64,000 bases of DNA from Streptomyces pactum. GTDB taxonomy: Bacteria > Actinomycetota > Actinomycetes > Streptomycetales > Streptomycetaceae. Below, in pieces: positions 1-30,050 of this stretch (the first letter of the stretch is position 1; each line of letters starts with the position of its first letter). The translations under genes and the position numbers were made by a program. The notes below the pieces were generated by a model, which had not been told where the DNA came from, searched no databases, and was given only the letters and a program-made list of their open reading frames with translations. The stretch spans positions 1,736,001 through 1,800,000 of the forward strand of contig NZ_CP019724.1 of NCBI RefSeq assembly GCF_002005225.1, given 5' to 3'.

Positions 1-39
1 CCGGCACGGCAGGAGAAGGTGACCTGGAAAGCCCGTGCT

Positions 40-59
40 TGAAAATGATTGTCATCGTG
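40..59. promoter_or_regulatory. Zur-type operator upstream of the first importer operon
   Basis: The sequence TGAAAATGATTGTCATCG is A/T-rich in a very G/C-rich neighbourhood and resembles actinobacterial Zur boxes (TGAAAATnATTnTCA). It lies 54 nt before the GTG start of the binding lipoprotein. Three further similar sites occur in this cluster. Assignment to Zur rather than to an iron Fur is inferred from the motif and from the Zur-like gene at the end of this operon. Confidence 0.7.
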
Positions 60-112
60 CTACGGTCGTCGAACGCTCAACCTTTGACCGGCTCTTTACC
101 CGGAGTGACCCC

Positions 113-1600
113 GTGCGCGTCCCCGCCCGCCTCCTGCCTCTCCCCGCGGCACTCGCCGCCTCCGCCCTGCTCACCGGCTGCTTCGCGTCCACGGAAGCCA
201 CCGGCGCCGACGCGGGCGAGCGCATCCGCGTCGCGATGATGCAGCCGCCGCGTTCGGGCCTGTCCCCGCTCTCCGACGACGCGTTCAAGCTGTCCCGCTG
301 GTCGACGGCGGAGACGCTCGTGAAACTGGACGCGGACGGCGACCCCGAACCGGCGCTGGCCACCGGGTGGAAGCAGTCGGGCCGGACCTGGACCTTCACC
401 CTCCGCGAGGGCGTCACCTTCCACGACGGCACCGAGCTGACCGCCGAGGCCGTGGTCCGCTCCCTCACCCGGGCCGCCGGCGCCTCCCCCAAGCCCCGCA
501 TCCTCGACGGGGTCGAGCTGACGGTGAAGGCGGGGGACGCCGGCACCGTGGCCGTCACCACCGCCGAGGAGGACCCCCTGGTCCCGCAGCGGCTCAGCTC
601 CCCGCAGTTGTCGGTCCTCGCGGCGAAGGCCTACCGGGGCAAGACCGTGAACCCGGTCGGCGCCGGCACCGGCCCCTTCGAGCTGACCGAGGTCAACGGC
701 ACCTCCTCCGCCGCCCTCGACCGCTACGACGACTACTGGGGCGGCACGGCCAAGGCTCCCGGCATCGACGTCACGTTCGTGCCGGACGGCACCGCGCGCG
801 CCGCCGCCCTGCGCAGCGGCGAGGCGGACATCGTGGAGGCGGTGCCCGTCTCGCAGGCCGCGCTGCTGGACGAGGACCTGATCACCGAGGTCCCGATGCC
901 CCGCACCAACACGCTGTACCTCAACACGGAGAAGGGCGCCTTCAAGGACCCGGCGCTGCGGGCGGCGGCCCGGGAGGCGATCGACGCCGAGTCGATCGTG
1001 AAGGGCGTGTACGAGGGGAGGGCCGACGTGGCCGAGGGGCTGCTCGGGCCCGCACTGCCGTGGGCGGCCGGGCTGCGCGAACCGGTGCGGCGGGCGAAGG
1101 CGGGTGATCCGTCCGGCAAGAGCATCACCATCGGCACCTTCACCGACCGGGCCGAACTGCCCGAGGTGGCCGCCGCACTGCAACAGCGACTGGAGAAGGC
1201 GGGCTTCCAGGTGAAGCTGGAGGTCCGCGAGTACGCCAACATCGAGTCCGACGCGCTGGCGGGCGCGTTCGACGCGTTCGTCCTCTCCCGGGCCACCGTC
1301 CTCGACTCCGGTGACCCGGCCGCGTACCTGTACAGCGACTTCGCCTCCGACGGCTCCTTCAACATCTCCCAACTCGCCGACCCGGCCGTGGACAAGGCCC
1401 TGCGCAAGGCCGGTGCGACGCCGACGGGTGAGGCCCGGCGCCGGGCCGTCGTCGACGCCGAGGCCGCCGTGCTCGCCACCGACGCGGCCGTACCGATGCT
1501 CCACGAACGCGTGATCCAGGGCGACGCCGCCGACGTGGTCGGCGCGGCGCACGACCCGCGCGAGCGGGAGCTGGTCACGCTCGACACGCACGTCAAGTGA
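113..1600 (+). CDS. Solute-binding lipoprotein, peptide/nickel (SBP_bac_5) family
   Basis: Extracellular substrate-binding component of an Opp/Nik/Cnt-type ABC importer; 495 aa. I place the start at GTG 113, which has a GGAG 7 nt upstream and gives a compact lipoprotein signal (LAASALLTGC, lipidated Cys23). An in-frame ATG at 35 would put the operator inside the coding region. The body has SBP_bac_5 features: a PALATGWKQSGRTWTFTLRE stretch followed by VTFHDG, and GTGPFELTEV. The stop overlaps the next start (GTGA), so it heads an operon with its permease, ATPases and a Zur-like regulator. The operator at 40-59 suggests zinc-repressed expression. The substrate is inferred to be a metallophore complex because staphylopine-type systems use this family; a peptide is possible. 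Confidence 0.85.
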   Translation: MRVPARLLPLPAALAASALLTGCFASTEATGADAGERIRVAMMQPPRSGLSPLSDDAFKLSRWSTAETLVKLDADGDPEPALATGWKQSGRTWTFTLREGVTFHDGTELTAEAVVRSLTRAAGASPKPRILDGVELTVKAGDAGTVAVTTAEEDPLVPQRLSSPQLSVLAAKAYRGKTVNPVGAGTGPFELTEVNGTSSAALDRYDDYWGGTAKAPGIDVTFVPDGTARAAALRSGEADIVEAVPVSQAALLDEDLITEVPMPRTNTLYLNTEKGAFKDPALRAAAREAIDAESIVKGVYEGRADVAEGLLGPALPWAAGLREPVRRAKAGDPSGKSITIGTFTDRAELPEVAAALQQRLEKAGFQVKLEVREYANIESDALAGAFDAFVLSRATVLDSGDPAAYLYSDFASDGSFNISQLADPAVDKALRKAGATPTGEARRRAVVDAEAAVLATDAAVPMLHERVIQGDAADVVGAAHDPRERELVTLDTHVK

Positions 1601-3363
1601 GGCCGCGCGCAGCGGGGGTGACGCGCGCCGTCGCCCTCGTCACCGTGCTGGCCGCCGTCGGCCTGCTGCCCTGGCTCTCCGGCCGGGACCCGGCGCTGAC
1701 CGTGCTGCGCGCCCGGTCGGCCGAACAGGAGCCGACCGAGGAGGCGCTGTCCGCGATCCGCGAGCACCTCGGCCTGGACGCCGGCCCGCTCTCCCTGCTG
1801 GGCGACTGGGCCGCCGGACTGCTCCGCGGCGACCTCGGCACCTCGTGGGTGTCGGGGACGGAGATCCTGCCGTCCGTCGTCTCCGGACTCCAGGTCTCGC
1901 TGGGCCTGATGGCCGCCGCGCTGACCGTGGCGGTGCTGCTGGCCACGGCCCTGGTGGCACCCGTACTGGTGCGGGGCCGGGGGTCGGCCGGGGCGTTCGC
2001 CGCGATGGCCGCCGCCGTGCCCGAGTTCCTCCTGGCCACCGTGGCACTGCTGGTGTGCGGGGTGTGGCTGGGATGGCTGCCGACGTCGGGCTGGCGGGGG
2101 CCCGAGTACCTGGTCCTGCCGGCCCTCGCGCTCGGTGTTCCGGCGGGCGGCCTGCTCGGGCGGCTGGTCGCGGACGCGCTGCCCGCCGTGCTCGACGAAC
2201 GGTGGGTGGAGCTGTGGCGGGGCGCGGGGGTGAGCCGCGCCCGCGTCTCGGCCGCCGCGCTGCGCCGCGTACTGCCGCCGCTGGTCCCGCAGTTCGGGAT
2301 GGTCGCCGTCGGCCTGACGGGCGGCGCGGTCGCGGTGGAGACCGTGTTCGCGGTGCCCGGCATCGGGCGTACGGCGCTGGGCGCGGCCAAGTCGCAGGAC
2401 CTGCCGCTGCTCCAGGGCGCGGTCCTCGCCCTGCTCGCCCTGGGCCTGGTCACCGGCGCGCTGGCCGCCCTGGTACGGCGTCGGCTGCTGGGCCCCGCCC
2501 TGCGCGACGCCGGACTCGCGCTGCCCCCGGCCCGCCCGGTCCGGGCGCACCCGGCGGTCCCGGCCGCCCTCGCCGCCGTACTGCTGGCGGTGATCGGCTG
2601 GGGCCTGCTGCGCGACCCGTACGCGGTGGACACGGCCGCCCGGCTGGCCCCGCCCTCCTGGGCGTACCCGCTGGGCACCGACGGGCTCGGCCGCGACGTG
2701 CTGGCCCGGCTCGGGCACGGCGCCGCCGCTACGGTCGGTACGGCCGTGGCCGTCTGCCTGCTGAGCCTGCTGGCCGGGCTGGCGCTGGGCTTCCTGCCCG
2801 GCGTCGCGGCGGGGGCGGCGGACATCGCCAACGCCCTGCCACCCGTGATCGTCGGCATCCTGGTCGCGGCGGCGGCCGGTCCCGGCACCGGCGGCGCGGC
2901 CCTCGCCGTCGCGCTGATCTCCTGGCCGCCCCTGGCGGCGCACGCGGCGGCGCTGGTGCAGGAGGTGCGGGCGTCGGCGTTCCTGACCGCCCAACGCGCC
3001 ATCGGGGCACCGCCCCTGTGGATCCTCACCCGGCACGTCCTGCCGTCCGTCGCCGCCCCGGTCGCCCGCCACGCCCTCCTCCGGCTGCCCGGCATCGCCC
3101 TCGCCCTGGCCTCCCTGGGCTTCCTGGGGCTGGGCGCCCAGCCGCCCGCCCCCGAGTGGGGCCTGCTCCTGGACGAGTCCCGGGCCTACATCGAACGCGC
3201 CCCCTGGGCCGCGCTCGCCCCGGCCGTCGCGCTGGCCCTGCTGGCGGGGCTGGCCGTGACGGGAGCGGCGTACGCGCAGGGCCGCGGAGCCCGGCGCACG
3301 ACCGGCCGCACGTCACGAAAGGAGACCACCCATGCCGTCCGAGGCACTGCTGTCGGTGCGTGA
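1597..3363 (+). CDS. Fused OppB-OppC-type ABC permease
   Basis: A single 588-aa membrane protein that contains both permease halves normally encoded by two genes. Residues about 1-290 look like an OppB/NikB permease (EAA-loop-like ELWRGAGVSRARVSAAAL near 205-222). Residues about 310-560 look like an OppC/NikC permease (PLGTDGLGRDVLARL near 352-366 and an EAA loop around TAQRAIGAPPLWILTRHVLP). Hydrophobic helices run throughout. It starts by GTGA overlap with the lipoprotein gene, although GTG 1618 is possible, and it overlaps the following ATPase gene by 32 nt. Such a fusion is uncommon in the family and mirrors the fused ATPases of the second importer at 12,556-14,469. It acts in the cytoplasmic membrane. 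Confidence 0.85.
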   Translation: MRPRAAGVTRAVALVTVLAAVGLLPWLSGRDPALTVLRARSAEQEPTEEALSAIREHLGLDAGPLSLLGDWAAGLLRGDLGTSWVSGTEILPSVVSGLQVSLGLMAAALTVAVLLATALVAPVLVRGRGSAGAFAAMAAAVPEFLLATVALLVCGVWLGWLPTSGWRGPEYLVLPALALGVPAGGLLGRLVADALPAVLDERWVELWRGAGVSRARVSAAALRRVLPPLVPQFGMVAVGLTGGAVAVETVFAVPGIGRTALGAAKSQDLPLLQGAVLALLALGLVTGALAALVRRRLLGPALRDAGLALPPARPVRAHPAVPAALAAVLLAVIGWGLLRDPYAVDTAARLAPPSWAYPLGTDGLGRDVLARLGHGAAATVGTAVAVCLLSLLAGLALGFLPGVAAGAADIANALPPVIVGILVAAAAGPGTGGAALAVALISWPPLAAHAAALVQEVRASAFLTAQRAIGAPPLWILTRHVLPSVAAPVARHALLRLPGIALALASLGFLGLGAQPPAPEWGLLLDESRAYIERAPWAALAPAVALALLAGLAVTGAAYAQGRGARRTTGRTSRKETTHAVRGTAVGA

Positions 3364-4291
3364 TCTGCGGATCGCGTTCGGCGCGGTCGAGGCGGTGCGC
3401 GGGCTGACGTTCGACGTCCGCCCGCGCGAGGTGTTCGCCGTCGTCGGGGAGTCGGGCGCGGGCAAGTCCCTCACCGCCCGGGCACTGCTCGGCATGCTGC
3501 CGCGCGGTGCGACGGCCGGCGGCAGCGTGCGGTTGCGGGGCTCCGCCGACCTCGCCGCCGAACGCGGGCGCCGGATCACCCTCGTCCCCCAGGACGCCCT
3601 GTCCGCCCTCTCCCCCGTCCACCCCGTCGGCGACCAGCTCGCGGCAGCCGTGCGCTCGGTGCGGGGCCTGTCCCGCGGCCGGGCGCGCGACCTGGCCGTG
3701 GCGGCACTGGACCGGGTCGGCATCCCGGACGCCGCGCGCCGGGCGCGGGCCTATCCCCACGAGTACTCGGGCGGTATGCGGCAGCGCGCGGTGATCGCCA
3801 TGGCGACGGTCAACGAGCCGGACGTCGTCGTCGCCGACGAACCGACCACCGCGCTGGACGAGGAACGCCGCGAGCAGGTGCTGCGGGTGCTCGCCGAGCA
3901 GCGGGAGGCGGTCGGCGCCGCGCTGGTCCTCGTCACCCACGACCTGGAGGTCGTACGGGAGCACGCGGACCAGGTGCTGGTGATGTACGCGGGCCGGGCG
4001 GCCGAACGAGGCCCGGCCCGGCAGGTCCTCGGCCGTCCGCGCGCCCCGTACACGGCGGGCCTGCTGGCCTCGCTCCCGCAGGACGGCCCCCGGCGCCGCC
4101 GGCTGCCGGCGCTCCCCGGCACCCCGCCCGCGCCGGACGCCCTCGGGCCGGGCTGCGCCTTCGCGCCGCGCTGCCCGCTGGCGACGGACCCGTGCCGCGA
4201 CCGCGAACCCGAACCGCGGACCGTGGACGGACGCCTGGTCGCCTGCCATCACGCCGACGACGTGCCCGACCCTCTCCGGGAGTTCGTGTGA
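3332..4291 (+). CDS. ABC importer ATPase, OppD/DppD type
   Basis: ATP-hydrolysing subunit of the first importer; 319 aa. Walker A GESGAGKS is at residues 39-46, the signature is YSGGMRQR, and Walker B is VVVADEPTTALD. The C-terminus carries the Cys-containing oligopeptide/dipeptide domain (GCAFAPRCPLATDPCRD), typical of the D-type subunit. The ATG at 3332 follows AAGGAG, so translation restarts inside the end of the permease gene. The stop overlaps the next GTG. It should pair with the F-type ATPase encoded next and with the fused permease. Confidence 0.88.
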   Translation: MPSEALLSVRDLRIAFGAVEAVRGLTFDVRPREVFAVVGESGAGKSLTARALLGMLPRGATAGGSVRLRGSADLAAERGRRITLVPQDALSALSPVHPVGDQLAAAVRSVRGLSRGRARDLAVAALDRVGIPDAARRARAYPHEYSGGMRQRAVIAMATVNEPDVVVADEPTTALDEERREQVLRVLAEQREAVGAALVLVTHDLEVVREHADQVLVMYAGRAAERGPARQVLGRPRAPYTAGLLASLPQDGPRRRRLPALPGTPPAPDALGPGCAFAPRCPLATDPCRDREPEPRTVDGRLVACHHADDVPDPLREFV

Positions 4292-4968
4292 ACCACCCCC
4301 TGCTGGACGTCCGCGACCTCGTCGTCCGCTACGGCCCGGTGACCGCCGTGGACGAGGTCTCGTTCACGCTGGACGCCGGTGAGACCCTCGCCCTCAACGG
4401 CCCCTCCGGCTGCGGCAAGTCCTCCACGGCCCTCGCGGTGCTCCAACTGCGCCGGCCCGACGGCGGGCAGGTCCGCTTCGAGGGCCGGGAGCTGACGACC
4501 CTGACGGAACGTGAACTGCGCCCGCTGCGCCCGCGCATGCAGCCCGTCTTCCAGGACCCCTACGGTTCCCTGAGCCCCCGGCACCGCATCCGCGACGCGG
4601 TGGCCGAGCCGCTGAAGGTGCAGGGCGGATGGGACCGGGCCGACGGACCCGCCCGCGTGGCCGAGCTGCTCGACCGGGTCGGCCTCGACCCCTCGTACGG
4701 GGACCGGCGCCCGCACGAACTCTCCGGCGGCCAGTGCCAGCGGGCCGGGATCGCCCGCGCCCTCGCCTCCGGGCCGCGGCTGCTCGTCCTCGACGAACCG
4801 GTGTCGGCGCTCGACGCCTCCGTGCGGGCCGGCGTGCTGAACCTGCTCTGTGACCTCCAGGACGAACTGGGCCTCGGCTACCTGTTCATCTGCCACGACC
4901 GGGCGGTCGTACGGCACTTCGCGGACCGAGTGGTCGAGATGAGGGACGGGCGCGCGGTCCGCGCCTGA
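4288..4968 (+). CDS. ABC importer ATPase, OppF/DppF type
   Basis: Second nucleotide-binding subunit of the first importer; 226 aa from a GTG that overlaps the previous stop as GTGA. Walker A is GPSGCGKSS, the signature is LSGGQCQRAGIARAL and Walker B is LLVLDEPVSALD. It lacks the C-terminal Cys-rich extension of full-length OppF proteins and is therefore shorter than usual, closer to NikE/CntF size. The gene is followed after 72 nt by the Zur-like regulator, which is probably in the same transcript. Confidence 0.85.
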   Translation: MNHPLLDVRDLVVRYGPVTAVDEVSFTLDAGETLALNGPSGCGKSSTALAVLQLRRPDGGQVRFEGRELTTLTERELRPLRPRMQPVFQDPYGSLSPRHRIRDAVAEPLKVQGGWDRADGPARVAELLDRVGLDPSYGDRRPHELSGGQCQRAGIARALASGPRLLVLDEPVSALDASVRAGVLNLLCDLQDELGLGYLFICHDRAVVRHFADRVVEMRDGRAVRA

Positions 4969-5040
4969 CGACTGCGAGAGACCCACTGGACGGACGGCGT
5001 CCGGCACCGCGCGGCCCGCCGGACGCGAGGAGGCACGCCC

Positions 5041-5469
5041 ATGTACGGAACGGCCCGCGGCGAGTGGCGTACGACCCGGCAGCGAGCCGCGGTCCTCGGG
5101 GCCCTGCGCGCCTGCGACGGCTTCGTCTCGGCGCAGGCCCTGCACGCCGCTCTGGCCGCGGACGGCGTGGCGGTGGGGCTGACCACCGTCTACCGCACCC
5201 TGCGGTTACTGGAGTCGGCCGGGCACGTCGACGTGGTACGGGACGGTGACGGTGAGCGTCTCTACCGGCCCAGGCCGGACGGCGGTCACCGGCACTACGC
5301 CGTCTGCCGGGAGTGCGGCCTCAGCCTCGCGGTCGACTCCGAGGAGGTAGAGCAGTGGGTGGCGAGGACCGTACGGCTGATCGGATTCCGCGCGGTGGAC
5401 CACACCGTCGAACTCACGGGCGTGTGCGGTGACTGCCACCGCCCGGCCGACCGCCGGACGGACCCCTGA
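5041..5469 (+). CDS. Fur-family transcriptional repressor, Zur-like
   Basis: 142-aa metal-sensing DNA-binding protein. The N-terminal winged helix has the family hallmark VGLTTVYRTLRLLESAGHVDV. The dimerisation domain has HRHYAVCRECG and a later CGDC pair, that is, the two CxxC elements of the structural zinc site. Overall it looks closer to Streptomyces Zur than to CatR- or Nur-type Fur paralogues. The ATG at 5041 follows GAGGAGG. It closes the importer operon, so it is probably under the operator at 40-59 and autoregulated. It may be a cluster-dedicated paralogue of a chromosomal Zur. Metal specificity is inferred, not shown. Confidence 0.82.
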   Translation: MYGTARGEWRTTRQRAAVLGALRACDGFVSAQALHAALAADGVAVGLTTVYRTLRLLESAGHVDVVRDGDGERLYRPRPDGGHRHYAVCRECGLSLAVDSEEVEQWVARTVRLIGFRAVDHTVELTGVCGDCHRPADRRTDP

Positions 5470-5517: not shown

Positions 5518-6618
5518 TCACAGCATCCTGAGCTCGGCCGCCCCGTCCGTCGCCAGGTCCTCGGTGACGCGCAGCGGATCGAGTACCTCCGCGGCGAAGC
5601 GCACACCGGGTGCGATCGCCCCGTGGAGGACCCCGAGCGCGGCGGTGGCGGCCAGGAACCCGCTCAGCTCGTAGGAGTCCTCGGCGCGCAGGACCAGCCT
5701 TGCGGTGGGCGGCCCGTCCTCCACCCCGTCCCAGAGGTGGAACTCCTGTCCGTACCAGGCCCCGTGGCGCCGCACGTCCTCGTCGGCGGCCGTGACCAGC
5801 TCGGCGGTCCCCGTGCCGTCCAGCGCCCACGCCATGGCGAGTTCCTCGGCCAGGCGGCCGCCGCCGAAGACGGTGTACCAGCGCAGGCGGCCGACACCCG
5901 TGTCGCGGGCCAGCCGGACGGCCTCGGCGGACAGGAAGGGGAAGGCGTCCACGGGCGCCGGGAAGGCATCGAGCCGCTCCGCCCGGCGGGGGGCCAGGGC
6001 GCGCTCCCGTATCCGTCCTTCCTCCCAGGCGGCCGCCGGTGTGCCGTGCTCCGGCCCCCGGCCGAGCAGCACGTCGCCGGCCGCGGCCGGGGTGAGCGGC
6101 GCGACACCACCGACGTAGGCGTCCAGTGCGACCGCCGCGGTGGCGCGGGCGGCCAGGGCGCGAGGCAGCAGCGACGACAGACCGGGCAGCGCGCCGGCGG
6201 ACAGCACGGCCACGCGTCCGGCCGCCGCCCATCGCTCGGCGCCTTGGCCGGCGGACAGCAGGTCGCGGACCGGATCGTCACCGGCCGCGTCCACGTAGTC
6301 GGCGCCGTTGCGCAGCGCTGCCCGCGCGACCAGGTCGAGCACGCGGTACGAGGGACCCGCGCAGTTGACGACGAGCCGGCATCCGGCCGTGAAGCGGTCC
6401 AGCGAGTCGGGGTCGGTCAGATCGACGGCCAGGGCAGCCGCGTCCGAGCCGCCCTCCGGGAGTCCGGTGACCAGCGCCGCCGCCCGGTCCGCGTCACGGC
6501 CGGCCACCAGGAGGGGGCCGGCACCCGCCCGGTGGAGCCGTCGCACGACCGCACCGCCGACCGCTCCGTAACCGCCCAGGACGCCGACGGCCGTCTTGTC
6601 TCGCATCGGTATTCCCAC
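5518..6618 (-). CDS. Saccharopine dehydrogenase-like NAD(P)-dependent reductase
   Basis: 366-aa protein with an N-terminal Rossmann fold (VGVLGGYGAVGGAVVRRLH, about residues 10-28) and VVNCAGPSYRVLD, characteristic of saccharopine-dehydrogenase-like oxidoreductases. It starts at GTG 6618; ATG 6606 is an alternative, and both have G-rich ribosome-binding sequence. It diverges from the CxxC flavoenzyme gene, and the operator at 6641-6660 lies between them, so it is probably regulated with the metallophore cluster. The yersiniabactin pathway needs a thiazoline reductase (YbtU), and no YbtU-like gene was seen, so this protein is a candidate for that kind of step or for opine-type chemistry. That role is speculative. 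Confidence 0.65.
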   Translation of the reverse strand: MGIPMRDKTAVGVLGGYGAVGGAVVRRLHRAGAGPLLVAGRDADRAAALVTGLPEGGSDAAALAVDLTDPDSLDRFTAGCRLVVNCAGPSYRVLDLVARAALRNGADYVDAAGDDPVRDLLSAGQGAERWAAAGRVAVLSAGALPGLSSLLPRALAARATAAVALDAYVGGVAPLTPAAAGDVLLGRGPEHGTPAAAWEEGRIRERALAPRRAERLDAFPAPVDAFPFLSAEAVRLARDTGVGRLRWYTVFGGGRLAEELAMAWALDGTGTAELVTAADEDVRRHGAWYGQEFHLWDGVEDGPPTARLVLRAEDSYELSGFLAATAALGVLHGAIAPGVRFAAEVLDPLRVTEDLATDGAAELRML

Positions 6619-6640
6619 CGTTCCCCTCGGACTCCACTGT

Positions 6641-6660
6641 TGAAAATGATAATGATTATC
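6641..6660. promoter_or_regulatory. Zur/Fur-type operator between divergent redox genes
   Basis: Positions 6648-6660 are a perfect 6-1-6 inverted repeat (GATAAT-G-ATTATC), preceded by TGAAAAT. It is placed to control both the reductase gene to the left and the flavoenzyme gene to the right. It is the most symmetric of the four boxes, and also the one that most resembles a classical Fur box. Confidence 0.72.
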
Positions 6661-6693
6661 GTACTAGTTCTTGATCGCCGAACCAGGAAAGAA

Positions 6694-7626
6694 GTGACGA
6701 CGATGTTCGACGTGATCGTGGTGGGCGGCGGGCCCGCGGGCCTCAACGCGGCGCTGGTGTCCGGGCGTCAGCGCAGGCGGGTCCTCCTGCTGGACTCCGA
6801 CCGCCCCCGCAACGCACCCGCGGCGCGGATGCACATGTTCCTCAGCCGTGACGGGTTCCCGCCGGCCGAACTGCGCCGCATAGGCCGCGACCAGCTCTCC
6901 GCCTACCCGAACGTGGAGGTGCGTGGGGCCACCGTCACCACCGCCGCGACCACGCCCCGGGGATTCACCGTGACGCTGGCCGACGGCGCGGTGGAGCACG
7001 CCCGCAGACTGGTCCTCGCCACGGGGCAGGTCGACGTGCTCGACGAGCGGGTGGAGGGGCTGTCCGCGCTGTTCGGCCGGGGCGTGTACCACTGTCCGTT
7101 CTGCCACGGCTGGGAGACCACCGGGATGAGCCTGGCCGTCCTCGGGCATGAACTGCCGCAGGTCATGCAGGCCCTGTACGTCGCCGACCGCTTCAGCCGG
7201 GACGTGATCGTGTGCACCGACGGCCACCCCGTGCCCGAGCAGGCCGCGGGCCGGCTCGCCGACGCGGGGATCGCGGTGGAGGAGACGGGCGTGACCCGGA
7301 TCGAGGGCGAGGAGGGCGCCGTCCGCCTGGTCCTCGCCGACGGCCGGGTCATCGAGCGGCAGGGCGTCTACCACCGGCCGCCGACCCGCCAGCACTCCCC
7401 GCTGGCCGAGCAGTTGGGGTGCCTGATCCTCCCGGACGGCTGTGTGCGGGTCGACGAGTTCCAGCGCACGTCGGTGCCCGGCGTGTACGCGGCCGGGGAC
7501 ACCGCCCGTCTGGAGGCCCTGCCGGACGCCCTCACCTTCGTGATCACCGGCGCCGCCGACGGCGCCCGCGCCGCGGTCTGGCTGGACCAGGAACTCTTCC
7601 GCGAGGACGCCGGCCTGGGCGGCTGA
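6694..7626 (+). CDS. Thioredoxin-reductase-like FAD oxidoreductase with CPFC motif
   Basis: 310-aa flavoprotein. The FAD-binding GxGxxG-type motif is VVGGGPAGLNAALVSG at the N-terminus. The redox pair CPFC lies in YHCPFCHGWE, and the C-terminal FAD motif is GVYAAGDTAR. A CPxCHG pattern near the middle is typical of small-molecule dithiol oxidases such as GliT and HlmI and of related Streptomyces enzymes, rather than of canonical thioredoxin reductases. The start is GTG 6694 (AGGAAAG just upstream) or ATG 6703. The gene shares the operator at 6641-6660 with the divergent reductase. A role in oxidising or reducing a thiol or thiazoline group of the metallophore is plausible but inferred. Confidence 0.72.
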   Translation: MTTMFDVIVVGGGPAGLNAALVSGRQRRRVLLLDSDRPRNAPAARMHMFLSRDGFPPAELRRIGRDQLSAYPNVEVRGATVTTAATTPRGFTVTLADGAVEHARRLVLATGQVDVLDERVEGLSALFGRGVYHCPFCHGWETTGMSLAVLGHELPQVMQALYVADRFSRDVIVCTDGHPVPEQAAGRLADAGIAVEETGVTRIEGEEGAVRLVLADGRVIERQGVYHRPPTRQHSPLAEQLGCLILPDGCVRVDEFQRTSVPGVYAAGDTARLEALPDALTFVITGAADGARAAVWLDQELFREDAGLGG

Positions 7627-23800: not shown

Positions 23801-24800
23801 CGAGGCGGGTGGCGGTGCCGTGGGCCTCGACGTAGGTGATGTCCCTCGGCGTGAGACCGGCCACGGCGAGTGCCTCGTTCACGGCACGGGCCTGTCCACG
23901 CGGTGAGGGGGCCGTGAATCCGGTGCGGTCGCCGCCGTCGTTGTTGACCGCGGAGCCGTGCAGGACGGCCAGCACCGGGTCGCCGTCGGCCAGCGCCTCG
24001 CGCAGCCGCCGAAGGACGGTCACCCCGACGCCCTGGGTGTGCACGATGCCGGTCCCCCCGGCGGAGAAGGTCCGCACGTGCCCGTCGACGGAGAAGATGC
24101 CGTCGGGGACGTGGAGGTAACCCCTGCCCTGCGGGATGATCAGGGAGGATCCGCCCGCGAGCGCGGTGTCGCACTCCCCCGCCAGCAGCGACTGGGCCGC
24201 CAGGTGCACGGCCACCAGCGAGGTCGAGCACGCGGTACCGACCGCGACGGCCGGCCCGGTGAGCGCGAGGCGGTGCGCGACGTGCAGCGGGAGGTAGTCG
24301 GCGACTCCCGCGAGGGCGGCCTGCAGGCTGCCGACGGGGTCGGTGGCGGAGGCGGCGTACCGGTCCGCGAGGTTGCGGGCGAGGTAGTCGCTGTGGGCGG
24401 CGCCCGCGAAGACCCCCACGGCGCCCGCTCCGGCGCCGCCGCCGTGCCCGGCGCTTTCCAGGGCACGCAGGCAGGCCTCGAGGAAGAGCCGCTGCTGCGG
24501 GTCCATCACGGCCGCCTCGGCGTCGGACAGGCCGAACGGCTCGGGGTCGAAGTGGTCCTGTCCGTCGATGATCCCGCTGACGGGTACGTGCGCGGGGTTG
24601 CCCGGCGACTCCCGCTCGCTGTGCCGGGTCAGTCCGCTGCGGCCGTTGACGAGCAGGTCCCAGTACGCCGCCGTGTCAGGGGCTCCGGGGAACCGGCAGT
24701 CCAGGGCGGTGACGGCGATCAGGTCGTCCTCGCCGGCCGGGTTGCCGGGCGGGGACGCGTCCGGCGCATGTTCTCGGGAGGTGGTCGGTCCGGTGCTCAC
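17892..24800 (-). CDS. Hybrid PKS-NRPS: KS-AT-KR-ACP-Cy-TE
   Basis: 2302 aa. KS at about 25-445 has active-site Cys191 in GTACSTSL and a later EAHGTATRLGD. AT at about 540-840 has GHSLGEY near residue 628. KR at about 1130-1340 has the nucleotide motif VVLGGLGDVGLALA and catalytic PYAAVNRYL. ACP has GGHS near 1433. Cy at about 1500-1940 has canonical DVLVCDTAS near 1632. TE at about 2040-2302 has GWSMGG near 2095 and a late HH. This is the HMWP1 (yersiniabactin) order without the two internal methyltransferases and without a PCP between Cy and TE; a Gly/Ala/Asp-rich repeat fills that place. AT specificity is probably malonyl-CoA (AAHS at the usual motif), but this is uncertain. GTGA overlap links it to the upstream NRPS gene. 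Confidence 0.9.
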   Translation of the reverse strand: MSTGPTTSREHAPDASPPGNPAGEDDLIAVTALDCRFPGAPDTAAYWDLLVNGRSGLTRHSERESPGNPAHVPVSGIIDGQDHFDPEPFGLSDAEAAVMDPQQRLFLEACLRALESAGHGGGAGAGAVGVFAGAAHSDYLARNLADRYAASATDPVGSLQAALAGVADYLPLHVAHRLALTGPAVAVGTACSTSLVAVHLAAQSLLAGECDTALAGGSSLIIPQGRGYLHVPDGIFSVDGHVRTFSAGGTGIVHTQGVGVTVLRRLREALADGDPVLAVLHGSAVNNDGGDRTGFTAPSPRGQARAVNEALAVAGLTPRDITYVEAHGTATRLGDVVEVAALRRVFGDTGPAWCALGSVKSNIGHANSAAGIAGFAKTVLALHHGVLPPTLDALPLNPDLRLADSPFTVVHETADWTGPRYAGVSSFGIGGTNCHVVLGSAPVRPAPPADPRPQLALLSAHRDDALARLAEDTATALHTTAADPADAAHTLHTGRATLPYRAAAVLTGRRAADSRALRTAPRRRPGPTPPRIVLAFPGGGAQYAGMGRELYAQEEEFARTVEACADLFDDGVGSGLTELITAEPSDEGARRLLRDPEHGLPALFAASLAAARTLRSWGVEPDAVVGHSLGEYVAAVLAGALSLPDAATLVAVRSRGMSRAAGGGAMLTVPLTERQVLALLIDHPELDLAAVNGPRSCVVSGPARAVTDLELALTARGEHTVRLSLDAAAHSRLVDPVLPELRAAAEGVQPGVPGIPLATTLTGKLLDTAPDADHWVAHLRSTVRFSDALATALGDGPAVLMQTGPGSGLLQLARRQGDRRAPATLATFPDRDDPRGGRAALLAAAGELWTYGVPLDAAALHRPGRRRTTLPGLPLARRRLWIDPPAAAVPADGRRHRSGQPVPDESEPLQLPVWTRTPPLEADRSALRGRWLVAASPDSPSAGPVRAALVAAGAEAVTLDEAVRDPDIPCEGIVVTGPHGGRGESPAEGADPAATVTASVLRYAEVARAAASWAHRACLLHVSHDAQQVESADRPAAHAAATLAVPRVLAQEFPGLRWRALDLPAGPPDALGTEAVLAEAADLVSGGPNGTECAVRGGHRWTRGITPWRPSAPAPDPEGPAVTEGGTGTAVVLGGLGDVGLALAGHLARSGRRVVVTGRAGLDPRPGSGGKDAERAETLRLLRASGADIEVRAADAADIAATTDLLSELTGRHGPLDLVVHAAGVVASAAVAPLRATEEESVRAHAHAKVTAALALRSAVNALPPGRRPGTVLLMSSATAFVGGLGLAPYAAVNRYLDALAEHEHSADPDAPRWLSVAWDGWRVGPGRSERTVASRHSIGLADGMRTVDRLLALAAAGRSPASVVVSPADLAPRTAGTPAVVAAAAPGVSTSEPRDGTAFTTAAEARLAEVWSDLLGFPVTDRDADFFALGGHSLLATRMLARLRDDHGADLLLQDLLARPSIAALAPMLPGGPDRRPPAGPQDTEAAPPPGPDEEPREFPLTRVQHAYWVGGSGGYRLGDVPCSFHLEYDCPDLDTDRYEAAWNAVIARHPMLRAVVSPEGRNRILDKVPHYRIRVQDLTGDDDGERARKLERVRERMVRREPRPGRWPLVDIRAARLPGDVVRLFVNVDVLVCDTASYLVWDRELRALYHDPAARLPPLTTTFAQCVAALQHRAEGPGHARAAAYWRARLDDLPGAPALPVQDRNPRERPRFARRTARLEPDRWDALKAEAARRGLTPTAVLLAAYGEALAGWSGQDRFSLTLTLFDRPAHLPGADAVVGDFTSLMLHEVDRSDTRRFADAAVRAQRTLFEDLDHREFSALDLLAEKSSRTGRSESVPVVFTSALGLSGPLGGGHDLDWAGTPVHGVSSTPQTWLDHQVIEQHGALLLQWDVLESALPAEEANAAFAAYTERVRLLADAPSAWDLDEPRAALPVPARAPDRPAPADASRTAKPAGHGPGPDAAAHAGGDTGAGGDAGGDTGAGAGAGAGGDTDAAARAGGDARNRADADADAAMLLHHGNGDRPLFLMHPSGGDVLCYGELARLLTDGRPVVALTDPALTGGTGARTIAEMTDRYLAALRAHQPRGPYLLGGWSMGGTVAHQMAVELERRGERTDLLVLIDSNTPDRIRALAGTGRTRTTAHAAVRYLRSLEAFLDLDLDLGADAKEIREAPTPAAVRRAVTERLRLAGLLGPHDTADTRLEVFERHLRALADHRAGHLTDPATRLLLIAASRPSPHNAGVGMGVDDAGDLPALGWLPHVNGPVDAHTVEGHHYSLLHDPAVRRTAALIDRALAAVPADR
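18760..18910 (-). repeat. Low-complexity tandem repeats in the Cy-TE linker
   Basis: Six-base CGGCAC/CGGCAT-type units and longer ATCGCCACCGG-containing units alternate and encode a Gly/Ala/Asp/Thr-rich stretch (GGDTGAG, ADADA). The array sits exactly where the terminal PCP of an HMWP1-like protein would be expected. Confidence 0.85.
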
Positions 24801-27800
24801 GCGGTCTCCTCGGCCAGGGCGCGGGCGGCGATGCGGGAGGTTCTGCGCGAGGGCCGCGCGGGTTGCGGGGGTTGCGCGGTCGCGGACGGCGGGACGGCGT
24901 CGGTGTCCGGGCCAGGGCCCGGGCCTGTGCCTCTGTCCGTTCCGGTTCCGGTTCCGGTGGCGGTGGCGCCAGGCGGTCGGCCGTGGTCCGGGGCGCTATG
25001 GCCGGTGATGCGGGCGGCCAGCGCGGCGACGGTGGGATGCTCGAACATGTCCGCCAGCGCCAGCCGGGGGGCGATGCTCTCGCGGAGCCGGCGGTGGGCG
25101 AGGACCAGGGTGAGGGAGGTCGCCCCCAGGTCGCCGAAGGTGCTGTCGGGCGTCACCGGCACGTCCGTGAAGTCGGCCAGTACGCCGGTGAGTGCCTCCA
25201 GTACGGCCGGGTCGACGAGTGCGGCGGGGCCGTGCCCGCGACGCCGGGGGGCCGTGCGGGACGCGCTGCCGTGCGGGTCAGGCGCCGAGGCCGGGGGCGG
25301 GGCTCCGGCTTCCGACGCCGGACCGGGGGCCGGGGCGGGTGTCTCGGGCGCGCTCCCGTCGGGGTGCCAGACCACCTCCGCGAGCCCTGCGGCGGCCAGG
25401 CGCGGTTCGGCGCCCCTGCCGTCCGCGGTCCGCGCCACGCTTCGCAGCCAACGGGCGGAAGCCTCCAGCGCCCGGTCCGGGCTGAGCCGTCCGGGCCGGA
25501 CCACGAGGGCCGCCTCCAGCCCGAGGCCGGCCGCCTCGGCCAGCGCCGCGGCCACCCACTCCCTGCCCGCGTCGGCGGCCGGGGCCGGCTCGGTGACGGC
25601 TCCGGCCGAAGCCGTGCTCCGGGGCGCGGAGGGTTCGTCCCGTTCCGCGCCGGACGCACCCGACTCGCCGGTCTCCGTGGGTCCGGAGTCGGCCGGCGCG
25701 GCGGTCAGGGCCGTGTGGTCGATCTTGCCGTTGGCCGTCACCGGAAGCCGGTCCAGGATCACGAACCGGCCGGGCACCATGTAGTCGGGCAACCGCTCGC
25801 GCAAGGCGTCCGCCAACTCCTGGGCCGTCGGCGGCTCGCTCGCCCCGCGGGGCGCCAGGTGGGCGACCAGCCGGGGCCGCCCGTCGGGCCCCCGTACGGA
25901 CGACACCACGCACTGGCGGACCGCCGGGTGGCGGGCCAGCACCGCCTCCACCTCGCCCAGTTCGATGCGGTGCCCGCGGATCTTCACCTGCCGGTCGACG
26001 CGCCCGAGGAACTCGATGGTGCCGTCGGCGGTCCACCGGCCGAGGTCCCCGGTGCGGTACAGCCTGCGGCCGAGTACGGGGTGGACGGCGAACCTCTCGG
26101 CGGTCTGCACCGGGTCACCGGTGTAGCCGCGGGCCAGTCCGTCGCCGCCGATGTACAACTCCCCCGCCTCGCCGACCGGGCGGGGCGAGCCGTCCTCGCC
26201 GAGGACGTGGAAGCTCTGGCCGCGCAGGGCCCTGCCGTAGGGGATGCTGCGCCAGTTCGGGTCGGTGTGCCCGACCGGATGGGTGATGGACCAGATGGAG
26301 GCCTCGGTGGCCCCGCCCAGACTCATCACCTGAGCCCGGGGCGCGAGCCGTCGCAGCCGGTCGGGCAGGGTCAGCGGGATCCAGTCGCCGGAGAGCATCA
26401 CCAGACGCAGCGCGCGCAGCGCCTCGCCGGCCTCGTCCGGCTCCATCTCCGCGTACTCGACGAGCATTTCCAGCAGGGCGGGGGCGGTGTTCCACACGGT
26501 GACGCCGTGCCGTCCGGCCTGTTCGAGCCAGTGCTGCGGATCGCGCTGCCGCGCGGGGTCGGGCAGTACCAGGGATCCGCCGGCGCCGAGGACGCCGTAG
26601 ACGTCGAACACGGACAGGTCGAAGCTGAGTGCCGACAGCGCCAGCACCCGGTCGTCGGGGCCGATGGCGAACCGGTCGACGATGTCGTCGATGGTGGTGC
26701 GCGCGGCCCGGTGCTCGATCTCCACGCCCTTGGGGCTGCCGGTGGAGCCGGACGTGAAGATCGTGTAGGCGATGTCGTCGGGGCGCGGGGCCGTGGGCGA
26801 CGGCTCCGGCGCGGGCGGCAGCGCGGCCCCGCGGGCGGGCCGTCCGGCAGCGGTCAGGCGGTGCGCCGTGACCGAGTCGGGCCAGTGCGTCTGCACGCCC
26901 CGGCCGACCAGCGCGTGGCGGACGCCGGCGCGCTCGCAGACCGCGGCGACGCGCGCGGCCGGCCAGGACGGTTCGACCGGCAGGTATCCGGCTCCGCTCA
27001 GGCTGACGCCCAGTACGGCGGTGATCTGCGCGGAGCCCTTCTCGCAGGCGACGGCGACCATCTCGCCGGGGCCCGCGCCGTGAGCGGCCAGCAGGGCGGC
27101 GGTGGCGGCGGCGTTGCCCGCGAGGCGGGCGTGGGTGACGGTGGCGGCGGAGGTGAGCAGGGCGGGCCGCCTCGGATGCCGCTGAGCCGCGTCGGCGACC
27201 GGGTCGTGCAGCAGAGGGCCGGCGGTGGTGAAGGGCCGGACGTCCAGCGGCTCCTCGGGGCGGAAGGAGGGGTCCCAGCCGAGGGCCGGGTCGTGCCAGG
27301 CCGCGGGGCGGGTCAGGGTGGTGAGCAGGCGTACGTAGGCGTCGAGCAGGGCCGGTATCCAGCCGTCGGGGAAGGCTCCCTCGACCGCGTCCCACGCCAG
27401 GCGGAGCCGGCCGCCCTCGTCCCACACGATGTGGTCGAGCAGGACCTGCGGGGTCTGGGATATGCCGTACACCTCCCGGCCGAGCCAGGAGGCCGGGGGC
27501 TTCCCGTCGCCCGCGAGACCGACGCCGCTGGTGAAGACCACCGGGTGGCTGGGGGCTCCCACCGGCCGCGCGGTGCGGTCCCGCAGGTCCCGGAGCACTT
27601 CCACACCGGAGACGGACCGGTGGTCCAGGTCCTCCCAGAAGCGGTGGTTCACGGCGGCGGCGTAGTCGGCGAAGCCCTTCCAGTCGGCCGGGTGGAAGCG
27701 GGGCGTGCCGACCAGTGCGGTGGTGGTGAAGTCGCCGACCACGTTCTCGGCCCCGTTCCCCTCCTCCGGGCGGTCGAACAGCGTGGTGTTGAGGCACAGC

Positions 27801-28960
27801 CGCTCCCCGGCGCCCCACCGGCCGAGCACGACGGCGAAGGCGGCGAGGAGGGCGGCGGTCGGTGTGACCGCGTGCTGGGCGCATCGGGCGCGCAGTTCCG
27901 CCCAGCTTCCGGCGTCGAGTTCGGCCGCGGAGCGGACGAAGCGGGGCGGGGTGGTGTCGGCGGGGTCGCGCAGCAGGGGCAGTCGCGGTGACGGCGGCAG
28001 GACGGGGGCGCGCTCGGCCCAGTAGGCGCGGTCACGAGCGCGCCGGGCGGCCCACTCGGGGTCCGCGGACCGGGCCCGCTGGAGGTCGGCGAACCGCGCC
28101 GACGGTTCGGGGAGCCGGTGGGCGGGGTCCTCGACGAGGCGGCCCCACTGGCGCATCAGCAGCATCCAGCCGGCCAGGTCGGTCAGCAGCACGTCGACCC
28201 CGACGTGCAGCCGCGTCCGTCCGTCGGGCACCAGCGTGGCGTGGACGTCGAACAGCGGCCAGGAGCCGGTGGGGCGGTTCCGGTGGGATCGCTCCCGCCG
28301 CTGTGCCGCCAGGGCTTCCCGCACGCCCTCGGCGGGCTCGCGCCGCAGGTCGGTGACGCCGATCCGGTAGGGGCCCGGAGCAGCGGCGATGTGCTGGCGG
28401 CCCCGGTGGTCCACCGTCATACGCAGCATCGGGTGGTGGTCGACCAGTCGGTTCCAGGCGGTCTCCAGACGGTCGACGTCCACGAGCGGGTCCGCGTCAC
28501 CGGGCGTGCGGTCGTACTCGTGGTAGTAGTACGTGGCGACCCCGCCCAGCGGCATGCCCTCGGCCCGTCCGGCGAGGTACGAGGCCTGGATCGGCGTCAG
28601 CGGGAAGCCTTCCCCCGTCACTCCCCCACCGCCGGGGCCCGCCTCCGCCGCCGCCAGCGCGTCGGGGCCGGCAGGCGCGGGCCGCGCGGGGTCCGCCGAC
28701 GCCGCGGACGCCTCGGCGGCGATCAGCAGGTCCGTCACCGCGCGGGCCGTGGCGCCGTCACCGAGGAAGGCGGTCAACGGCAGGTCCCGGCCGGTGCGTT
28801 CGCGGATCCGCCGCCTCAATCGCACCGCGGTGAAGGATTCGAGCCCCAGGGCCGCGAGCGGAGTCGTCAGCGCGACCGTCCGCGGTGGTGTGCCGAGGAC
28901 GTCGGCTATGCAATCGACGACGCGGGCAAGGGTGTCTTCGCTCGGCACAGGCTGGTTCAT
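24797..28960 (-). CDS. NRPS: carrier-Cy-A(Cys)-linker-PCP
   Basis: 1387 aa. The N-terminal carrier has GLES (Ser42), like aryl/acyl carriers. Cy at about 118-560 has signature D256-VLLT-D261-LA-G264, with the usual Ser replaced by Gly. A at about 585-1115 has IFTSGSTGSPKG near 735 and ends at TANGKID. The specificity residues I read, D-L-F-N-M-S-L-I-W-K, closely match the Cys code of Cy-type NRPSs (DLYNLSLIWK). A linker of about 170 residues containing an unassigned 75-residue segment follows, then a PCP (GATS near 1281). This equals ArCP-Cy1-A-PCP1 of HMWP2 with no methyltransferase in A. GGAGA precedes the ATG. It is the first gene of the operon, about 90 nt from a Zur-type box. Confidence 0.9.
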   Translation of the reverse strand: MNQPVPSEDTLARVVDCIADVLGTPPRTVALTTPLAALGLESFTAVRLRRRIRERTGRDLPLTAFLGDGATARAVTDLLIAAEASAASADPARPAPAGPDALAAAEAGPGGGGVTGEGFPLTPIQASYLAGRAEGMPLGGVATYYYHEYDRTPGDADPLVDVDRLETAWNRLVDHHPMLRMTVDHRGRQHIAAAPGPYRIGVTDLRREPAEGVREALAAQRRERSHRNRPTGSWPLFDVHATLVPDGRTRLHVGVDVLLTDLAGWMLLMRQWGRLVEDPAHRLPEPSARFADLQRARSADPEWAARRARDRAYWAERAPVLPPSPRLPLLRDPADTTPPRFVRSAAELDAGSWAELRARCAQHAVTPTAALLAAFAVVLGRWGAGERLCLNTTLFDRPEEGNGAENVVGDFTTTALVGTPRFHPADWKGFADYAAAVNHRFWEDLDHRSVSGVEVLRDLRDRTARPVGAPSHPVVFTSGVGLAGDGKPPASWLGREVYGISQTPQVLLDHIVWDEGGRLRLAWDAVEGAFPDGWIPALLDAYVRLLTTLTRPAAWHDPALGWDPSFRPEEPLDVRPFTTAGPLLHDPVADAAQRHPRRPALLTSAATVTHARLAGNAAATAALLAAHGAGPGEMVAVACEKGSAQITAVLGVSLSGAGYLPVEPSWPAARVAAVCERAGVRHALVGRGVQTHWPDSVTAHRLTAAGRPARGAALPPAPEPSPTAPRPDDIAYTIFTSGSTGSPKGVEIEHRAARTTIDDIVDRFAIGPDDRVLALSALSFDLSVFDVYGVLGAGGSLVLPDPARQRDPQHWLEQAGRHGVTVWNTAPALLEMLVEYAEMEPDEAGEALRALRLVMLSGDWIPLTLPDRLRRLAPRAQVMSLGGATEASIWSITHPVGHTDPNWRSIPYGRALRGQSFHVLGEDGSPRPVGEAGELYIGGDGLARGYTGDPVQTAERFAVHPVLGRRLYRTGDLGRWTADGTIEFLGRVDRQVKIRGHRIELGEVEAVLARHPAVRQCVVSSVRGPDGRPRLVAHLAPRGASEPPTAQELADALRERLPDYMVPGRFVILDRLPVTANGKIDHTALTAAPADSGPTETGESGASGAERDEPSAPRSTASAGAVTEPAPAADAGREWVAAALAEAAGLGLEAALVVRPGRLSPDRALEASARWLRSVARTADGRGAEPRLAAAGLAEVVWHPDGSAPETPAPAPGPASEAGAPPPASAPDPHGSASRTAPRRRGHGPAALVDPAVLEALTGVLADFTDVPVTPDSTFGDLGATSLTLVLAHRRLRESIAPRLALADMFEHPTVAALAARITGHSAPDHGRPPGATATGTGTGTDRGTGPGPGPDTDAVPPSATAQPPQPARPSRRTSRIAARALAEETA

Positions 28961-29050
28961 CCGGTCTCCGTTGCGGCGGCGGGCGGGAAGGGGCCTCCCC
29001 TCCCCGGCAGGGCACCAGGACCCGGGGGGAGCAGGACACGAATGAACCTA

Positions 29051-29070
29051 GATGAAAATGATTATCAGAT
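29051..29070. promoter_or_regulatory. Zur-type operator of the assembly-line operon
   Basis: TGAAAATGATTATCA at 29053-29067 lies between the end of the small methyltransferase gene and the first NRPS gene, about 90 nt upstream of its ATG. It is the only promoter-proximal operator visible for the nine overlapping genes from 28,960 down to 7,670. Confidence 0.75.
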
Positions 29071-29822
29071 CAACTATTGGACGTGGGTGCTTCCTTCGCG
29101 TGCTCCACGACACACAGCCCCAGCCCCGGATCACCGGCCGCGCCGAGCCGGAGCCCAGCCCCGGCGGCCTCGGCCGCCAGCTCCTCCACCGTGGCGACCC
29201 ACCACCGGTACTGGACCGAGGTCCCGCCCACCGGCTCCCCCCGACGCAGAACCCGGTAGTCCATGCGCCAAGTGACCTCGTCCGGACCCGTTGGCCGAGC
29301 ACTGGCCCAGCCCTCGTACTCCAGTTCGCCGATGACGACCCGGGCCATCCGCACCCGCTCCACCTCCACCGGGGCGTACGGCCGAGTGACGTTGAACACC
29401 AGCACCCCGCCCGGGGCGAGTTGCCGGGCGGCGCGGCTCCACAGCACACGCCTCTCGCCGGGCGGAAGGTGACCGATCACGTTCAGGGCCACGACCGCGC
29501 GCACCCCGTCGGGCCAGTCGGCACTCGCGCAGTCACCCGGGAGCACGGTGACGCGCCCGCGCAGCCGGTCGTCCTCGTGGACCCGGGCCAGCAGGACGGC
29601 ACGCATCGCCGCCGACGGTTCGACGGCGAGCACCGGAGCCTGCGGCAGTGCGTCACAGATGACGCGGACACCCCGGCCGGACCCGGCCCCGAGGTCCACC
29701 ACGGCACCGGTTTCGGCGCGCACCCGCGACAGGACGTCCGTCAGCGCCGGCGCCAGCGGCTCCCACGCCTCGGCGATCATGATGTCGAGGTACTCCGCGG
29801 ACCGCTCGTAGGGGTCGCTCAT
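29070..29822 (-). CDS. Class I SAM-dependent methyltransferase
   Basis: 250-aa protein starting at ATG 29822 with AGGAG upstream. SAM-binding motif I is VVDLGAGSGRGVRV, motif II region is VLAVEPSAAMRAVL, and motif III region is LAPGGVLVFNVTRP. It is a compact small-molecule methyltransferase unlike the two assembly-line types in the same cluster. It has its own Zur-type box upstream (about 29,957-29,976) and is followed by the NRPS operon in the same direction, so it could be partly co-transcribed. The substrate is unknown; tailoring of the metallophore is inferred from co-regulation. Confidence 0.78.
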   Translation of the reverse strand: MSDPYERSAEYLDIMIAEAWEPLAPALTDVLSRVRAETGAVVDLGAGSGRGVRVICDALPQAPVLAVEPSAAMRAVLLARVHEDDRLRGRVTVLPGDCASADWPDGVRAVVALNVIGHLPPGERRVLWSRAARQLAPGGVLVFNVTRPYAPVEVERVRMARVVIGELEYEGWASARPTGPDEVTWRMDYRVLRRGEPVGGTSVQYRWWVATVEELAAEAAGAGLRLGAAGDPGLGLCVVEHAKEAPTSNS

Positions 29823-29952
29823 CACTGCTCCTGGAATCGTTGGCACACAGTTCGGCAACGAGCCGACGCGACGGCCGGCGACCGGGGACGGGGCGGATCA
29901 CCAGGCATCCGACTGCGCCTTCGGGCCAGGGCGCGCGGCACTCGATCGGCAC

Positions 29953-29977
29953 GATAATCGATAATGATTACCATTAC
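29953..29977. promoter_or_regulatory. Zur/Fur-type operator upstream of the small methyltransferase gene
   Basis: GATAATGATTACCATTA (29960-29976) is the least symmetric of the four boxes but keeps the ATAATGATTA core, preceded by an additional GATAAT half-site at 29953. It lies about 130 nt upstream of the methyltransferase start. Confidence 0.6.
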
Positions 29978-30050
29978 TAGATGAGTGCGGGAGGACCGAG
30001 GGAGCGTCAGGTCGCGGCTGCGGACTGGACGACGGCGTGGGTGCGGCAAG

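Follow-up and report, generated by a model that had tools for sequence, protein, structure and literature searches.

A stretch of the Streptomyces pactum genome (bases 1736001-1800000 of the single 8.55-Mb contig; these 64,000 nucleotides are referred to here as the window) carries a gene cluster that is probably a zinc-starvation regulon making and re-importing a yersiniabactin-like, phenol-free thiazoline metallophore. The promoter sites of the cluster fit the actinobacterial Zur motif beyond chance, and control by Zur is strongly supported by sequence and conservation. A zincophore role of the product is a reasonable prediction. The cluster is a distinct variant of the Zur-controlled, yersiniabactin-like metallophore clusters.

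An original prediction, made from the letters of the window, had listed a nonribosomal peptide synthetase/polyketide synthase (NRPS/PKS) line, two importers, redox enzymes, methyltransferases and a Zur-like repressor gene, and had placed a Zur-type box before every transcription unit. Profile searches bear out this gene content: the NRPS/PKS line, two Nik/Opp-type importers with SBP_bac_5 binding proteins, NAD(P)- and FAD-type enzymes, three methyltransferases and one FUR gene are all present. The boxes likewise head four apparent units (Table 1). Box 1 stands before a run of SBP1, permease, ATPase and Fur genes, and box 2 lies between the divergent RED and TRXR genes. Box 3 precedes nine minus-strand genes, from N1 to N3, that are separated by short gaps or overlap, and box 4 precedes MT3.

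Zur-type boxes in the window and the genome

The 15-bp motif derived by chromatin immunoprecipitation for Zur of Streptomyces coelicolor (ScZur) is given as tGaNNatSatNNtCa (PMC5472717). Boxes 1 and 3 match this experimental motif without mismatch, each member of the overlapping pair in box 2 has one mismatch and box 4 has two, so that the four predicted boxes hold up. The window contains 16 matches at ≤2 mismatches, compared with a mean of 1.04 and a largest count of 4 in 100 dinucleotide shuffles. These shuffles are too lenient at two mismatches, where coding sequence gives more matches, because 11 of the 16 fall outside the four boxes. The weight of the comparison rests instead on matches with 0-1 mismatches, and the four of these in the window are all inside boxes 1-3. 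When an A/T filter is added, the scan at ≤2 mismatches returns the four boxes and a single other site, at 39839.

Across the whole genome, the published motif occurs at 107 places at ≤1 mismatch (about 0.8 expected per 64 kb) and at 13 in the control, which makes this one-mismatch scan too permissive to be used as stand-alone evidence. Six places have no mismatch, two of them in the window. A stricter pattern, TGAAAATNATTWTCA, which was picked after the boxes had been seen, finds 3 distinct places at ≤1 mismatch and 14 at ≤2, whereas the reversed pattern gives 1 genome match. A genome scan for Zur sites had been proposed with the original prediction; in the scan with this pattern, the window holds two of the top three places and four of the 14, and box 3 is the sole place in the genome that matches TGAAAATNATTWTCA without mismatch.

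Several of the other TGAAAATNATTWTCA places adjoin genes of a zinc type. One, at 4006519, lies between genes read as L31 type B/CobW and L28/S14. Two more, at 355293 and 359403 (5294 and 9404 of locus L132), lie around ABC-importer genes with a Peripla_BP_2 protein (L132:4173-10700), where a divergent 399-aa protein is presumably AztD-like. The place at 1418775 precedes a second SBP1/PERM1-like importer (54% and 53%; L133:10361-13790, about 1415-1419 kb of G000:C1) and suggests that a further Zur-controlled importer is encoded elsewhere in the genome. A gene read as znuA, near the chromosomal zur gene, has a site at its start with 2 mismatches to the published motif.

Iron boxes give a different picture. 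Using a consensus that we take to be of the TTAGGTTAGGCT type, no DmdR-type box occurs in the window at ≤3 mismatches, compared with 15 distinct places elsewhere in the genome at the same threshold and with a slightly looser pattern. Among 583 kb of related loci there is one such box at ≤4 mismatches; it lies in L124, some 12 kb away from the genes of the cluster. On these scans of the window, genome and related loci, control by iron through DmdR/IdeR was rejected. The cluster could still direct an iron siderophore behind coincidentally A/T-rich boxes, and the relatives of its assembly line, dihydroaeruginoic acid synthetase and HMWP2, do belong to siderophores. With the iron boxes absent from the window and the observed boxes both conserved and fitting the Zur motif, this explanation is very improbable.

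Conservation in related clusters

We compared the window with 20 related clusters, which had been located by their TRXR or RED homologues, scanning 250 bp upstream and 40 bp inside each operon head and counting a box at ≤2 mismatches; chance values come from plain letter shuffles. Loci L027 and L029 were left out as presumed duplicates of L116 and L126, whose contigs are equally long, and gene starts in the relatives are open-frame or tblastn boundaries that may be some codons off. With the window included, a Zur-type box is found at 14 of 21 TRXR heads (0.07 expected) and at 11 of 12 N1 operon heads (0.06 expected), where nine of the boxes immediately precede N1 and the other two (G350 and G022) precede an MT3 gene ahead of N1 that was set as the head after the boxes there had been seen. 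Four of six MT3 heads also have a box. A further set of operon heads (6/6 with a box) was picked after the boxes had been seen and is not used as evidence. As a control, 64 TRXR homologues that are not part of such a cluster, most of them from mycobacteria, were scanned; no box is present at any of them, and the best sites have at least 5 mismatches to TGAAAATNATTTTCA; two of these 64 control loci, L082 and L101, hold an NRPS-like stretch that is 27-28% identical. The zinc reading of the original prediction is thus supported by the ScZur match, the lack of iron boxes, the occurrence of the same pattern at zinc-type loci and the conservation of the boxes in distant clusters.

Neighboring box matches in the cluster loci are most commonly offset by 6 bp (35 pairs at ≤3 mismatches; next spacing, 7), and such pairs may accommodate two dimers per promoter. 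Overlapping pairs with this offset, like that in box 2, are frequent in the relatives (for example, L036:9955/9961 and L054:6543/6549).

The core that recurs in the relatives consists of RED, TRXR, N1-N3, MT1-MT3 and the second importer, which is found wherever the examined stretch covers its place. The Fur paralogue and the first importer seem to be accessory. Within its genus the cluster is infrequent, with RED at ≥64% identity in 8 of 392 sampled Streptomyces genomes (its own included, and one match partial), yet it is present in distant actinobacterial genera. A CobW-family GTPase gene adjoins the Saccharothrix cluster, and a MacB/FtsX-type gene is found near the Salinispora cluster.

RED by itself was rejected as a family marker. 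It lacks specificity, since clusters with a more distant RED (L127/L128, L129/L130 and L131; 41-52% identity) have no boxes near that gene. An A/T-filtered scan of L127, L129 and L131 gives one weak match, in L129 and far from RED, and when the five loci from L127 to L131 are scanned a little less strictly, a few weak matches appear, none of them near RED. In these loci the RED-related enzymes adjoin other NRPS pairs, and L131 also has a P450-type gene.

The cluster Zur paralogue

Five proteins in the genome match the FUR family. One of them, encoded outside the cluster beside genes read as znu, is 97% identical to S. coelicolor Zur, and the FUR protein of the cluster is 50% identical to it. 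The best match of the cluster protein in the PDB, 3mwm, is a structure that we take to be S. coelicolor Zur. Apart from the residues cited next, the residues of the metal sites are those that we presume for Zur. Published site assignments place Cys79 and His87 in the M-site, His84 and Glu105 in the D-site and His36 at a site of its own (PMC11077047). In an ungapped alignment of 125 residues, the paralogue keeps all four cysteines of the C-site (Cys4), all four D-site residues and His36. It keeps one of four M-site residues, with the changes C79R, H85R and H87Y in ScZur numbering. By these residues the cluster gene is a Zur paralogue and not a canonical Zur. The Zur-like repressor of the original prediction is accordingly corrected to a 50% paralogue whose M-site has decayed, and the gene for the true Zur lies elsewhere.

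The paralogue could itself be the main regulator of the boxes in place of the chromosomal Zur, given that its gene is inside the cluster and that its structural site, D-site and His36 are intact. A Zur without the M-site has been reported from Synechococcus (cited in PMC11077047). We consider this improbable: of the 20 related clusters, G316 has an 80% copy and L037 a 41% copy, although several loci are cut short and copies could be missed there. Since many related clusters keep their boxes with no copy in the examined stretch, the chromosomal Zur is probably the common reader.

Assembly line and predicted product

The line comprises five carriers, three Cy-type condensation domains, one cysteine-type A domain, one KS-AT-KR module and a TE, distributed over three proteins; the Cy types are taken from relatives (N1, N3) and from visual inspection of motifs. 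The A domain of N1 aligns closely with the bacillamide synthetase BmdB, and its pocket, read by eye, is D-L-F-N-M-S-L-I-W, two conservative changes from what we take to be the cysteine code. The first carrier of N1 has the motif LGL[ED]S conserved in all 12 of 12 orthologues and has PKS carriers as its best structural-database matches (4.8e-6). Because of this resemblance, the starter appears more likely to be an acyl group than an aryl acid or an amino acid, and the product is expected to be phenol-free.

The search for a salicylate cap agrees with this expectation. Neither an aryl-acid ligase beside the line nor a P450 is found among the open reading frames searched at 1-31.7 kb of the window, and in the whole genome no match to TIGR03494 (salicylate synthase) or TIGR02275 (dihydroxybenzoate (DHB)-AMP ligase) exceeds its cut-off. 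The best ligase-like match in the genome, at 54.7-56.3 kb of the window, scores 219 bits against a cut-off of 724. A salicylate starter encoded elsewhere in the genome was rejected on these grounds. Among 13 cluster-bearing genomes, several of which are fragmented drafts and one 86% complete, 11 have no salicylate synthase at E ≤1e-60. The domain inventory is like that of a yersiniabactin line, but the line does not look salicylate-capped: its first carrier is ACP-like, and neither the synthase nor a DHB-type ligase was found in the genome, the ligase having been sought with the DHB-AMP ligase profile and not with one for salicyl-AMP ligases.

N3 may be the split-off second half of an N1-type protein, which fits the layout of an N1-like protein from Aeromicrobium (1815 aa; two condensation and three carrier domains). 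Its Cy domain has EpoB, BmdB and HMWP2 as relatives and has Ser for the first Asp of the DxxxxD motif. Of 8000 scored candidates, 235 are relatives of N3 at E ≤1e-40. The 120 homologues listed come from genera that include Streptomyces, Micromonospora, Saccharopolyspora, Amycolatopsis, Nonomuraea, Actinomadura, Embleya and Nocardiopsis; the first Asp is absent from all 120, with Ser in its place in 111. By this pattern N3 has a conserved non-canonical heterocyclization-type domain.

TRXR belongs, by its matches and CPFC motif, to the DepH/HlmI/GliT family of low-molecular-weight TrxR-like CxxC enzymes. It is closest to DepH and 4ntd, which we take to be HlmI; both are presumably enzymes of disulfide antibiotics. 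The product might accordingly be a secreted zinc-withholding or antibiotic dithiol and not an uptake carrier, and an FAD enzyme that weakly matches halogenases is encoded at four related loci (L031, L032, L033 and L040). However, the gene run also includes an importer, which the relatives have as well, and this makes a purely secreted dithiol distinctly improbable.

The importers also bear on the metal that is carried. SBP1 has NikA as its best NCBIfam profile (NF045468, 1.8e-61), though below the cut-off (208 versus 600 bits), and family-5 binders, those of the NikA type among them, are matched by the importer proteins. A Zur-controlled molecule might therefore carry another, zinc-sparing metal such as cobalt or nickel, and a pyochelin-cobalt precedent has been proposed in Pseudomonas aeruginosa (PMC11481552). 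Metals are not separable by sequence, but no cobalt- or nickel-specific gene was recognized in the cluster, and we regard another metal as unlikely.

Several observations weigh against a zinc-regulated, phenol-free metallophore. The TGAAAATNATTWTCA places at 166088, 168452, 3837887 and 3976097 are at genes that do not look zinc-related (the matched letters at 8382328 and 8384692 repeat those at 166088 and 168452). A sigma-70 scan around the boxes finds no promoter-like site, so their placement over promoters is judged by eye only. No box is present at seven of the 21 TRXR heads (Actinocorallia, Actinomadura madurae, Actinomadura KC345, Micromonospora, Aeromicrobium, Saccharopolyspora and Nocardiopsis, the last two with weaker sites), at the Amycolatopsis N1 head or at two of the six MT3 heads (G316 and G378), and the N1 operon heads of G350 and G022 were chosen with the boxes in sight. 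The reaction of N3 is in doubt with its Cy motif lacking the first Asp, and no exporter gene was recognized in the cluster of the window. Finally, two cluster-bearing genomes (G330 and A. madurae) do have a salicylate synthase, on another contig.

Proposed mechanism

The zinc-starvation reading would operate as follows. When zinc is ample, the chromosomal Zur would bind at the four boxes, whose pattern is observed, and keep the cluster off; when zinc is low, it would leave them. N1, N3 and N2 have the domains to join an acyl starter, cysteines and one malonate-type unit into a chain, although the order of their use and the chemistry are conjectural. The single A domain would activate the cysteines and load them on several carriers. 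The cysteines could then be closed to thiazolines, which RED and MT1-MT3 might reduce or methylate. By analogy with DepH, TRXR may oxidize or reduce a thiol/disulfide, either in the product itself or in one of its precursors. The metal-loaded molecule would re-enter through importer 2 and, in this strain, perhaps through importer 1 too. The cluster Zur paralogue, with its D-site kept and its M-site lost, may adjust the response in those few strains whose clusters include it. Since a phenolate ligand would be missing, the product is expected to favor Zn(II) over Fe(III).

A broader interpretation, which we put forward tentatively and consider rather doubtful, is that the cluster represents a class of thiazoline zincophores, phenol-free and acyl-primed, that is widespread in actinobacteria and derived from a shattered yersiniabactin line. 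Here the loss of the phenolate and the gain of a DepH-handled thiol/disulfide would shift the preference from iron to zinc, and some strains would add a Zur without the M-site.

To our knowledge, few dedicated bacterial zincophores have been described. Coelibactin is the actinobacterial reference case, and attempts to isolate it are described as having failed (PMC10127202). Because the present cluster comes with a predicted zinc switch and is also found in distant actinobacterial genera, its product might be brought to light by growing cells with a zinc chelator. Conservation of Zur boxes could serve as a rule for separating zincophore from siderophore clusters, and the cluster paralogue offers a test case for zinc sensing without the M-site in Streptomyces.

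Gene organization and surroundings

Coordinates of the boxes and genes are collected in Table 1. Nine open reading frames from the roughly 10 kb left of the window were compared with Pfam. Six of them match malate synthase, an IclR regulator, allantoicase, an amidohydrolase, an SDR and a HipA-like kinase, and three have no family. Except for a weak KR match inside the SDR, Pfam finds no NRPS/PKS assembly-line domains in these nine frames. To the right of box 4 is a divergent gene pair of the IucA/IucC-FhuF siderophore-synthetase type (30200-31741 on the minus strand and 31873-33372 on the plus strand), and in G022 a similar pair (75-78%; L125) lies a few kb from RED. At 39.7-54 kb there is a block resembling purine/urate breakdown (xanthine/uracil permeases, amidohydrolase, uricase, OHCU decarboxylase, catalase and a thiamine pyrophosphate enzyme) that is separate from the cluster.

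Table 1. Boxes and genes of the cluster, in window coordinates.
Feature	Position	Strand	Basis
Box 1, Zur-type	40..54	+	Upstream of SBP1; 0 mismatches to published ScZur motif
SBP1, family-5 solute-binding lipoprotein	113..1600	+	PF00496 1.9e-69
PERM1, two fused ABC permease units	1597..3363	+	PF00528, two stretches
ATP1, Opp/Dpp-type ABC ATPase	3332..4291	+	PF00005, PF08352
ATP2, ABC ATPase	4288..4968	+	PF00005 1e-28; start by reading
Zur paralogue	5041..5469	+	PF01475; best PDB match 3mwm
RED, saccharopine-dehydrogenase-like NAD(P) enzyme	5518..6606	-	PF03435 1.6e-12; start by reading
Box 2, two 7-1-7 boxes overlapping with 6-bp offset (6641-6655 and 6647-6661)	6641..6661		Divergent RED/TRXR region; 1 mismatch each
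TRXR, DepH/GliT-type dithiol oxidoreductase, CPFC motif	6703..7626	+	DepH 4nte 1.2e-44; 4ntd 1.7e-42
N3, PCP-Cy(variant)-PCP, no A domain	7670..9781	-	PF00550 two stretches, PF00668
MT1, free-standing PKS-type C-methyltransferase	9778..11202	-	CurJ 5thy 8.3e-33
MT2, free-standing methyltransferase	11199..12602	-	PF13489 1.3e-7
ABC, two fused ATPase units, importer 2	12556..14469	-	PF00005 two stretches; start by reading
PERM2, ABC permease	14466..15287	-	PF00528 3.7e-15
PERM3, ABC permease	15281..16267	-	By eye; counterpart in relatives also matched by PERM1 at 32-35%
SBP2, family-5 solute-binding lipoprotein	16264..17841	-	PF00496 4.6e-76; PDB matches include nickel-binding and oligopeptide-binding proteins
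N2, KS-AT-KR-ACP-Cy-TE	17892..24800	-	Pfam; Cy type from DVLVCD motif by eye
N1, ACP-like carrier-Cy-A (cysteine type)-PCP	24797..28960	-	Pfam; relatives 6lta, BmdB, dihydroaeruginoic acid synthetase 7emy
Box 3, Zur-type	29053..29067		92 bp upstream of N1; 0 mismatches to published motif
MT3, S-adenosylmethionine methyltransferase	29070..29822	-	PF13649 9.6e-11
Box 4, Zur-type, weakest	29959..29973		136 bp upstream of MT3; 2 mismatches

Comparison with known systems

Searches of open-licence PMC papers listed none that we recognized as a description of this cluster, which is weak evidence. We take the yersiniabactin proteins HMWP2 and HMWP1 to have five carriers, three Cy-type domains, a cysteine-type A domain, a KS-AT-KR-ACP module, a TE and two methyltransferases, and the inventory of the cluster is the same as this layout; the 1815-aa protein of Aeromicrobium is HMWP2-like. 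In contrast to HMWP1/HMWP2, the line is split into N1, N2 and N3, its methyltransferases are free-standing, N2 has no carrier between its Cy and TE domains and the first carrier of N1 is ACP-like. The cluster further differs from yersiniabactin in having no salicylate genes, a reductase of another family and a binding-protein importer.

The synthesis of [S,S]-EDDS, a different small molecule, is not known to involve an NRPS/PKS line. Its cluster in Amycolatopsis japonicum sets a precedent, as a zinc-chelator cluster that was found by its Zur sites (cited in PMC12161575). Coelibactin of S. coelicolor is Zur-controlled (PMC5472717), as is predicted here, and both coelibactin and sorangibactin share a heterocyclizing NRPS with the present cluster. 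For these two systems, a salicylate-derived phenol is described or predicted and a P450 is present in both (PMC10127202). The cluster is set apart from these descriptions by its PKS module, its split proteins and the lack of a P450 or aryl ligase among the genes searched at 1-31.7 kb of the window. An SrbE-type saccharopine-dehydrogenase-like enzyme is a trait of the coelibactin/sorangibactin family; the observation here is that RED matches PF03435.

Compared with S. coelicolor Zur, the cluster paralogue shares the C- and D-sites at 50% overall identity and has Cys79, His85 and His87 replaced. TRXR has a CPFC motif, and DepH is its best structural-database match. Unlike DepH, HlmI and GliT, it sits in a Zur-boxed NRPS-PKS cluster together with an importer.

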